A stretch of DNA of 36,161 nt from assembly GCA_030648645.1 (NCBI GenBank), contig JAUSHL010000017.1, forward strand, positions 1-36,161, in the 5' to 3' direction. Source of the stretch: Candidatus Daviesbacteria bacterium (GTDB taxonomy: Bacteria; Patescibacteriota; Microgenomatia; Daviesbacterales; UBA10151). Shown one piece after another: positions 20,657 to 23,450 of the stretch; positions within the stretch are counted from its first letter, which is position 1, and each line of letters opens with the position of its first letter. The translations under genes were made by a program, and so were the position numbers. The notes below the pieces were generated by a model that was not told the origin of the DNA, did no database searches, and saw only the letters and a program-made list of their open reading frames with translations.

Positions 20657-20956
20657 TTACTCTTCCCCTACTGCCTCTAAAAACCATTTTAATTTGGAAG
20701 TATCTAATCTTAACTGGTAGAAATTATCACCGGAAGAAATAGAAAAATGGTAAAATAACGAAGAACCATTTTTACTGGTGTGAACGAGGTTAATTTTATC
20801 AACTTTAATTTGCCTACTGTTCCAAAAAAATAAATAAGGCTGAATTATATTTTGTTTAAAAAAGACCCAGACATTAATAGGTTCTAAAATTTCTACCATA
20901 CTATGAATATATACCAAAGAAAACCCAAAGGTCAAGTAGTCAGAATTATGAATCAA
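20657..20956 (-). CDS. Small conserved-looking hypothetical protein (start probably at MVEILEPINVWVFF)
   Basis: Complete ORF upstream of and divergent from the GH-like gene; internal Met gives a plausible shorter start. Confidence 0.5.
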   Translation of the reverse strand: MIHNSDYLTFGFSLVYIHSMVEILEPINVWVFFKQNIIQPYLFFWNSRQIKVDKINLVHTSKNGSSLFYHFSISSGDNFYQLRLDTSKLKWFLEAVGEE

Positions 20957-22654
20957 GAATTTAGAATTAAGCTTTTAACACCTTTATTCTTTATTCTTTT
21001 CGCTTTATTCTTACCCAAATCAGTTTATGCCATCTCTGATCCATTATCTGTTCCTAATAATAAATTTGGTATTCATATTATTGGAGCAAATAGCGATGAG
21101 GCCTCCCCTGCTGCAACATTGGTTAATTCTTCCGGTGGTGATTGGGGCTATGTGACAGTTTTGGTAGAAAGTAAAAACAGAGATAAAGATCGTTGGCAGA
21201 AATTTTTTGATGATTTAAGACGCCGGCACTTAATTCCAATTGTAAGACTGGCAACAGATCCGGCAGCTGCCGGATGGAAAAAACCTTATGAAGGAGAAGA
21301 GATAGCTTGGGCTGATTTTTTAAATAATTTAATTTGGCCGACTAAAAATAGATATGTGGTAATTTACAATGAACCAAACCATGGGACTGAGTGGGCTGGT
21401 AAAGTTGATGCTAAATCTTATGCCCAAGTTTTAGATAAAACCATCACTGCTTTAAAAAAGAAAAATCCTGATTTCTTTGTATTAAATGCAGGGTTTGATG
21501 CCTCCACTCCCCAAAAACCACCAAATTATCAGGATGAAGTAAGTTTTCTAATGGAAATGGAAGAGGAAGTGCCCGGTATTTTTAATAAATTAGATGGTTG
21601 GGTTTCTCATTCTTATCCTAATCCTAATTTTTCAGGGTCACCGGATGCTTCCGGACGTGGGACTGTCAAAACTTTTGAATGGGAACTGCAGATTCTTAAA
21701 AAGTTAGGACTTACTAAAAATTTACCGGTTTTTATTACAGAAACAGGCTGGAAACATGCTGAAGGAGAAACTCCTGAAAAATGGTTACTTTCTTCAGATA
21801 CTTTAAGTTCTTACTTTCAACAAGCCTTTCAAAATGCCTGGAATAATACTTCGATTGTTGCTATAACTCCGTTTTTATTAAATTATCAGGAGGAGTTGTT
21901 TGAACATTTTTCTTTCCGCAAATCAAAGAGTAATGAATTTTATCCTCATTATCAAACAATTGTAAATTTACCAAAAATTGAAGGGCGGCCTGTGCAGGAG
22001 ATTAAAGCCGAACTCATTAAAGGAGGTATTTATCCTGCTATTGTTTCCGGGGAAAATTACACCGTTCCTTTTATTTTTAAAAATACCGGTCAGTCAATTT
22101 GGAATGAAGATGGATCTTTTGAACTTCGGGCGTTGGAGGGCGCAAAGGATTTAGGGATTAATTCTGTAAAGCTAGTCAATAAAGTTGAGCCGAGTCAGGA
22201 GGGTGATTTTAATCTTAATTTTAAGGCACCAATTTCCGGAACATATAAAGTTGTATTGCAATTATTTAACAATGGAAAACCTTTAGATCAAAAACCTTTA
22301 GAATATGAGGTGCAAGTTAAATCTCCGGTTATTTTACTTATTAATTCTAACTTGAAGTGGAAGGAAAATTCAGCAGGTAAATATTTATTGTCAATTATTT
22401 CTGATGTTTTAACTGCATCCTTAAATGTTAATCTGGATACTTATGGTAATTCAGGACCTGTTGAGGCAAGGTTTCTACTTCCGGATCATAATTTTGATTT
22501 TACTTTGCAGAAACGTTTTTATCAGCCTAAAACAATTAAGGCAGAGCTAAAGTCAGGTATTAATAATTTGGATTTTGGTACATTGGAACCGGATTTCTTC
22601 TCAGCCATTTTGCATCCACAAGAGTTTTGGAATCTCACTCCTTTTTCTCCTTAA
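20903..22654 (+). CDS. Secreted glycoside-hydrolase-like (TIM-barrel) protein with C-terminal beta domain (start likely MNQEFR)
   Basis: Signal peptide, VVIYNEPNHGTEWAG (acid/base NEP motif), PVFITETGWKHAEG (nucleophile-like E). Confidence 0.78.
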   Translation: MNIYQRKPKGQVVRIMNQEFRIKLLTPLFFILFALFLPKSVYAISDPLSVPNNKFGIHIIGANSDEASPAATLVNSSGGDWGYVTVLVESKNRDKDRWQKFFDDLRRRHLIPIVRLATDPAAAGWKKPYEGEEIAWADFLNNLIWPTKNRYVVIYNEPNHGTEWAGKVDAKSYAQVLDKTITALKKKNPDFFVLNAGFDASTPQKPPNYQDEVSFLMEMEEEVPGIFNKLDGWVSHSYPNPNFSGSPDASGRGTVKTFEWELQILKKLGLTKNLPVFITETGWKHAEGETPEKWLLSSDTLSSYFQQAFQNAWNNTSIVAITPFLLNYQEELFEHFSFRKSKSNEFYPHYQTIVNLPKIEGRPVQEIKAELIKGGIYPAIVSGENYTVPFIFKNTGQSIWNEDGSFELRALEGAKDLGINSVKLVNKVEPSQEGDFNLNFKAPISGTYKVVLQLFNNGKPLDQKPLEYEVQVKSPVILLINSNLKWKENSAGKYLLSIISDVLTASLNVNLDTYGNSGPVEARFLLPDHNFDFTLQKRFYQPKTIKAELKSGINNLDFGTLEPDFFSAILHPQEFWNLTPFSP

Positions 22655-22663
22655 ACTGGGGGG

Positions 22664-22692
22664 TTGACATGCTCTTGTTTGCATGGTAATAT
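22664..22692 (+). promoter_or_regulatory. Near-consensus sigma70-type promoter with extended -10
   Basis: TTGACA-N17-TAATAT with TGg directly upstream of -10. Confidence 0.85.
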
Positions 22693-22698
22693 ACATTC

Positions 22699-22815
22699 AC
22701 TTAGTAATCGTAAGGTTATTGAGTTGCTTGTTGGTCGAAAGATTAATAAGTATTTTACTTACAGGTCGCAAGATCTATAAGTACTCGAAAAAGCTCCCGC
22801 AAGGGAGTTTTTTCG
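22699..22815 (+). ncRNA. Candidate structured small RNA of four GNRA-capped hairpins, last one a terminator
   Basis: Stems 22699-22724 (loop GTAA), 22727-22750 (GAAA), 22757-22782 (GCAA), 22786-22815 (GCAA); begins at predicted +1. Confidence 0.8.
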
Positions 22816-22883: not shown

Positions 22884-22912
22884 TTGACATAGTATCCACA
22901 AATTGATAAACT
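22884..22912 (+). promoter_or_regulatory. Promoter for HNH ORF (predicted +1 at or next to its GTG start)
   Basis: TTGACA-N17-TAAACT, GTG 7 nt downstream of -10. Confidence 0.65.
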
Positions 22913-22918
22913 GAACGT

Positions 22919-23389
22919 GTGGATGAGTGTAAAAGGTGTAAGAAAAAATATAAATCGTCTAGTAGACATGTAAATTGTCCAAAGTGTAGAAATTTACTAA
23001 ACAAGAGACCATGTAGTATTTGCGGAGAATTAAGACAAAGAAAATCAAAAATTTGTCAAAAGTGTTATTCTCAAAGCAGGCAATATCCCTACTCTCAAAA
23101 AAAACATGTGAGTAAAGGTGGTTATTTATATGTTTATTATAAAGCCCATCCATATGCTGATAAAACCGGAAGAGTGTTTGAACACCGTCTTGTATTTGAA
23201 CAGAAATTAGGCAGATACTTATTACCTACTGAAAGTGTTCATCATAAAAACGGTATAAAAAATGATAATAGAATTGAAAACTTAGAACTTTGGGCAAAAG
23301 TACAACCCACTGGTGCAAGAGTTGAAGATCTTGTACAATGGGCAAAGGAAGTCTTGAAGTTATATGGTGATGTTAGCTCAATTGGTTAG
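22919..23389 (+). CDS. HNH endonuclease with N-terminal zinc-ribbon-like region
   Basis: CKRCKKKYKSSSRHVNCPKC, CSICGELRQRKSKICQKC; FEHRLVFEQKLGRYLLPTESVHHKNGIKNDNRIENLELW. Confidence 0.88.
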   Translation: MDECKRCKKKYKSSSRHVNCPKCRNLLNKRPCSICGELRQRKSKICQKCYSQSRQYPYSQKKHVSKGGYLYVYYKAHPYADKTGRVFEHRLVFEQKLGRYLLPTESVHHKNGIKNDNRIENLELWAKVQPTGARVEDLVQWAKEVLKLYGDVSSIG

Positions 23390-23440
23390 AGCGTCTGCCT
23401 GTGGCGCAGAAGGTTGCCGGTTCGAGTCCGGTACGTCACC
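23366..23440 (+). tRNA. tRNA-His(GTG)
   Basis: G-1 plus gtgatgt/acgtcac acceptor, anticodon arm tctgcCTGTGGCgcaga, discriminator C. Confidence 0.92.
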
Positions 23441-23450
23441 CAAATAGGTT

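Follow-up and report, generated by a model that had tools for sequence, protein, structure and literature searches.

The window, by which we mean the whole 36,161-nucleotide stretch of the Candidatus Daviesbacteria contig under study, belongs to a 962-kb draft genome and carries on its plus strand, at about positions 22699–22815, a candidate small RNA (sRNA) gene with its own promoter. Both ends of the RNA are approximate and were placed from its fold, covariation among homologs, and the distance to the promoter. The promoter (22664–22692, plus strand) consists of a –35 element TTGACA at 22664–22669, a 17-nucleotide spacer, and an extended –10 element, TGgTAATAT, with its hexamer at 22687–22692; this arrangement of TTGACA, spacer, and TG-preceded TAATAT, described in an earlier sequence-only reading of the same DNA, was confirmed in the sequence. 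The first helix starts 35 nucleotides after the start of the –35 element. The RNA comprises, all on the plus strand, hairpin 1 (22699–22724; 11 of 11 positions paired, a GUAA loop, and ACUU and GAGU at its ends), hairpin 2 (22725–22752; 12 bp in the fold, a GAAA loop), hairpin 3 (22757–22782; an 11-pair stem with one mismatch, a GCAA loop), a short linker ACU (22783–22785), and a 3' stem (22786–22815; 13 of 13 positions paired, a GCAA loop, and a U-tract inside the 3' arm) that is presumed to be an intrinsic terminator. Hairpin 3 corresponds in alignments to the hairpin that immediately precedes the 3' stem in relatives, most of which have UCU as the linker.

The minimum-free-energy structure of the RNA (–53.3 kcal/mol) contains all four GNRA-capped stem-loops that had been proposed from about 22699 onward. 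Among 200 dinucleotide-preserving shuffles, which folded at –23.6 ± 3.3 kcal/mol, none was as stable (z = –8.99), and the minus strand formed a far less stable fold (–28.5 kcal/mol, z = –4.62). Counting by hand gave eight or nine G-U pairs, in agreement with the eight or so on which the sequence-only reading had based a strand-specific signal, an argument that these results uphold. Its pair counts held for hairpins 1, 3 (10 of 11), and 4, whereas hairpin 2 forms 12 pairs in the fold rather than 10, and the 2-nucleotide linker that it had placed between hairpins 1 and 2 shrinks to 0 nucleotides. The bases left exposed in the window copy are almost only the GNRA loops and the 3-nucleotide linker.

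A nucleotide search of 95 relatives yielded partial matches. When these were read out in full, some proved to be whole genes built like that of the window, in which the same 3' stem follows one, two, or three other hairpins. In a seed alignment of six sequences, 11 of 24 pairs had changed on both sides and 96.5% of cells paired; covariation was lower in all 500 shuffles, and a one-column shift of the partner reduced pairing to 50–59%. A covariance model built from this alignment matched 38 of the 45 family genomes at E ≤ 0.001, with some of these matches corresponding to a second sRNA type or to bare terminators, so that genes of the window's kind (type A) were called one by one; such a gene, including its promoter, was accepted in 33 of the 45 genomes. 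When 33 loci were aligned with the model, the pairs held and both core helices covaried, although this alignment was fitted to the model and its counts lean towards the structure, a tendency that is less marked for the six-sequence test. The pair just below the U-tract (columns 93:134) is U-A in 17 loci, G-C in 14, and A-U in two, which suggests that selection acts on the lower part of the 3' stem as RNA, beyond the need for a run of U residues.

All 28 type-A loci that were measured carry a TTGAC –35 element, and in all 28 the first helix begins 32–36 nucleotides past the first base of that element, which is where transcription is expected to start. The RNA thus seems both to begin and to end in helices. 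The retention of pairing through compensatory changes, together with the preserved distance between promoter and helix, bears out the earlier proposal of an sRNA gene. The proposal that four consecutive hairpins are its design applies to the window but is not a defining feature of the family: two hairpins are present in eight of the 28 loci, three in 17, and four in three, the window included. The four-hairpin form of the window is one variant, and the conserved core consists of the last hairpin, the short linker, and the 3' stem. Loops are mostly GNRA across type-A loci, and in a large number of relatives an outer ACCUG/CAGGU helix encloses two of the hairpins. Relatives with this nested form (L031, L033, L036, L037, L038, L039, and L042) also share a conserved 8-nucleotide apical loop (CCUNAAAA, CUUUAGAA, or CAUCAAAA), possibly a site of pairing or of protein binding. 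Covarying structure, a dedicated promoter, and a terminator are conserved together, as in an independent noncoding RNA gene. The structure of the RNA and its conservation were thus demonstrated computationally, and comparison of the sequences provides good support for an uncatalogued sRNA gene with its own promoter that is conserved across Ca. Daviesbacteria.

The absence of a known RNA class, also anticipated by the sequence-only reading, was upheld: in a scan of the window with Rfam only tRNAs scored above the cut-off, and no family reached its gathering score at the sRNA positions of the homologous loci. The closest look-alike was RNAI (RF00106), at 35.3 bits against a gathering cut-off of 47. 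RNAI of ColE1 plasmids is likewise short, with several stem-loops and a terminator at its end, whereas the window RNA is chromosomal, lies outside any replication-origin context, and is not known to be antisense to another RNA. The 6S RNA model (RF00013) had no match in the window or in its genome and 18 relatives, and neither model for the bacterial signal recognition particle RNA (RF00169 and RF01854) matched in the same 19 genomes. Most control genomes, unlike these 19 whole genomes of Microgenomatia, do match the latter models, and the signal recognition particle RNA of the 19 genomes is either very divergent or missing. The linker GUUCUCUAAG resembles a boxA element, but the rRNA leaders of relatives (GCACATTAACAACC, GTTCTTTAACAACC, and GCTCTTTGAAAATTG) do not contain its pattern, and this identity was rejected.

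When the promoters were compared side by side, a conserved block, TGAYCYAYTTNNTCCYAGTTGAC, was seen to run into the –35 element. This LexA-like operator is missing from the window copy and was hence invisible to a reader of the window sequence. A search with the pattern, allowing up to three mismatches, gave 75 matches in the 45 family genomes, whereas the same pattern reversed gave 19. Of the 75, about 49 could be explained: approximately 18 lie at type-A sRNA genes and about 13 at genes of the second type (type B), with the others upstream of lexA in 16 genomes and of a gene for a LysM protein in two. We also prepared a scoring matrix from lexA promoters only, with the –35 element itself left out, and used 1306 other TTGAC sites as background. 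The promoters of 21 of 33 type-A genes and 14 of 15 type-B genes scored above the 99th percentile of this background, and in 21 of the 33 type-A promoters the 21 bp before the –35 element resemble the operator that precedes lexA. By eye, the sites resemble 11-bp direct repeats. LexA came to recognize direct repeats several times, according to a passage in PMC7739468 that cites a 2017 study of Patescibacteria. The LexA protein of the window's own genome has a LexA_DNA_bind and a Peptidase_S24 domain, both well above cut-off. Two of the genomes in which lexA and the sRNA both carry the operator are G025 (L204 and L027) and G037 (L203 and L015). An operator common to lexA and to the homologous sRNA promoters, as in an SOS regulon, was thus found in relatives and not for the window copy, and we infer from it LexA/SOS control of the sRNA in most relatives; this is a statement about those relatives and not about the window's gene.

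Type B is a second sRNA of about 60 nucleotides, in which one short hairpin is followed by a 3' U-tract stem (loci L193, L205, L206, L209, L210, L213, L215, L216, L217, L167, L096, L098, L106, L113, and L043; 14 of these 15 carry the operator). Its gene is frequently found immediately 5' of a flavin mononucleotide (FMN) riboswitch and ribE, or divergent from an rpiB-like gene. The operator-bearing LysM gene (L199 and L202) encodes a membrane protein with two LysM domains, a layout that we take to resemble that of the SOS division inhibitor YneA.

The explanation that we favor, with somewhat better than even confidence, is a stand-alone, almost fully paired RNA that is SOS-controlled in most relatives and probably binds a protein. 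An RNA of about 60–135 nucleotides would be transcribed from its own sigma-70-type promoter, starting inside the first helix and ending in the 13-bp U-tract stem. Given that the operator runs into the –35 element in most relatives, bound LexA would block RNA polymerase there, and self-cleavage of LexA triggered by DNA damage would allow the RNA to be made during the SOS response. In the genome of the window, where a G-tract takes the place of the operator, control might be constitutive or exerted by another factor. The RNA would then act as a decoy or scaffold for a protein rather than by antisense pairing, a mode suggested by the near absence of unpaired bases and by the freedom of the hairpin number to vary.

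Several points weigh against this explanation. The lexA matrix is partly circular, in that the lexA sites were themselves found with the sRNA-derived pattern, although the landing of that pattern on lexA in 16 genomes is not circular; moreover, several of the top background sites are matches of the same pattern search. No operator is present in the window within three mismatches, and the matrix score of the window promoter is at background level. Eleven other type-A promoters (that of L024 being borderline) also have no operator, and dinB in the window has no operator match. The operator has not been shown at recA, which was not examined, or at any repair gene. Binding of a protein is a guess.

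The upstream block might instead be a generic strong-promoter element of the UP type, or the site of some other regulator, in which case the RNA would be conserved without belonging to the SOS response. That the block runs straight into the –35 element, and that the window copy and the 11 others manage without it, would suit such a role, but the pattern is too rare in the 45 genomes, and too concentrated at sRNA genes, lexA, and the LysM gene, for us to regard this as other than unlikely. The window promoter itself has a run of six G residues (22658–22663, plus strand; TGGGGGG-TTGACA as read from the sequence) immediately before the –35 element, at the place where relatives carry the operator. 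The sequence TTGGGGGGTTGACA (22658–22669 in the window) was confined, among the loci examined, to those that contain such an sRNA, namely L009, L029, and L074 (one genome), L019 and L075 (one genome), L046, L049, L057, and L105. It may constitute an alternative promoter module before such sRNAs and occurs in two families.

The main rival to protein binding is a trans-acting antisense sRNA that would pair through short exposed stretches, such as the UCU linker or the 8-nucleotide loop of some relatives, and that might repress a division gene upon SOS induction in the manner of DinR of Klebsiella, a LexA-linked sRNA that represses ftsZ (PMC10907235). The linker is conserved, as is the 8-nucleotide loop in several relatives, for which an antisense action fits better; but that loop is absent from the window and from many relatives, and the sequence that the window copy exposes is too short for convincing pairing. 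We therefore give this alternative a low probability and retain action on a protein as the preferred mode.

The neighboring genes bear on whether the RNA is independent. Upstream of it lies a plus-strand gene (20903–22654) with weak, below-cut-off similarity to GH5 cellulases, and this gene is recognizable 5' of the sRNA in at least 14 related loci. The commonest downstream neighbor in relatives is tRNA-His (23367–23441, plus strand, in the window), which follows the RNA in most Daviesbacteria loci, often at a distance of about 100–250 nucleotides. Between the two in the window is an open reading frame for an HNH_3 endonuclease (22919–23389, 156 amino acids), the 3' end of which overlaps the start of the tRNA-His gene; a promoter-like site at 22884–22912 may be the displaced tRNA promoter. 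The proximity of tRNA-His raises the possibility that the RNA is a cis-acting leader or attenuator of that gene. Synteny is broken, however, in L021, L022, L025, and L040, with no downstream tRNA-His within the stretch examined; the unit invariably ends with the 3' stem; the tRNA shows, by eye, a –10-like sequence of its own in several relatives; and in the window a coding gene intervenes. We consider an attenuator improbable. Several members have neither the upstream gene nor tRNA-His as a neighbor. This pattern speaks for a gene in its own right that descends, as a rule, without changing its position. A fortuitous series of hairpins, or a mere terminator of the upstream gene, which the likeness of the 3' stem to a terminator at another place in the window's genome (L002) might suggest, is contradicted by the fold z-score, the covarying hairpins, the promoter distance in all 28 loci, and the 38 of 45 genomes matched by the model, and we give it hardly any weight.

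At the level of the class, Microgenomatia, 55 of 288 genomes reached E ≤ 1e-5. Families f6, f16, and f29 contain consistent groups, and f12 contains one. The members of f16 and of f29 align among themselves, and their architecture and promoter style make kinship with the Daviesbacteria RNA only probable. Outside the class, matches were sporadic (eight genomes) and look like background. In L157 and L158, the 16S rRNA matches span about 1.8 and 2.2 kb, respectively, which suggests insertions. Microgenomatia might possess a lineage-wide set of RNAs, small and structured throughout, that takes in types A and B together with likely kin in other families of the class and would serve as a noncoding arm of the LexA/SOS response beside lexA and the YneA-like LysM protein; we put this forward tentatively, as somewhat less likely than its negation.

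Literature searches returned nothing on regulatory RNAs of these uncultivated bacteria with small genomes, about which very little appears to be known, and to our knowledge few sRNAs directly under LexA have been described in any bacterium. An anonymous intergenic stretch has become a testable RNA, for which the promoter and both ends are clear, an operator is proposed, and the regulator can be named; the modular hairpins, which vary in number between relatives, amount to a natural experiment for finding the part of such an RNA that matters. In Klebsiella pneumoniae, DinR is produced under LexA control and in larger amounts upon DNA damage (PMC10907235). The Daviesbacteria RNA is similar in being a small RNA whose production would be under LexA, as judged from the operator in relatives; it differs from DinR in its dedicated promoter and terminator, its near lack of unpaired sequence, and the lack of a known target. 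IstR-2 of Escherichia coli, too, is a stand-alone sRNA, and its promoter is LexA-controlled, but IstR belongs to a toxin-antitoxin locus with tisB, whereas no toxin partner was seen at the Daviesbacteria locus. The decoy RNAs CsrB and RsmZ consist of repeated small hairpins, variable in number, with GGA in their loops. The hairpins of the Daviesbacteria RNA likewise vary in number, as would be expected of a protein-binding decoy, with loops that are GNRA rather than GGA.
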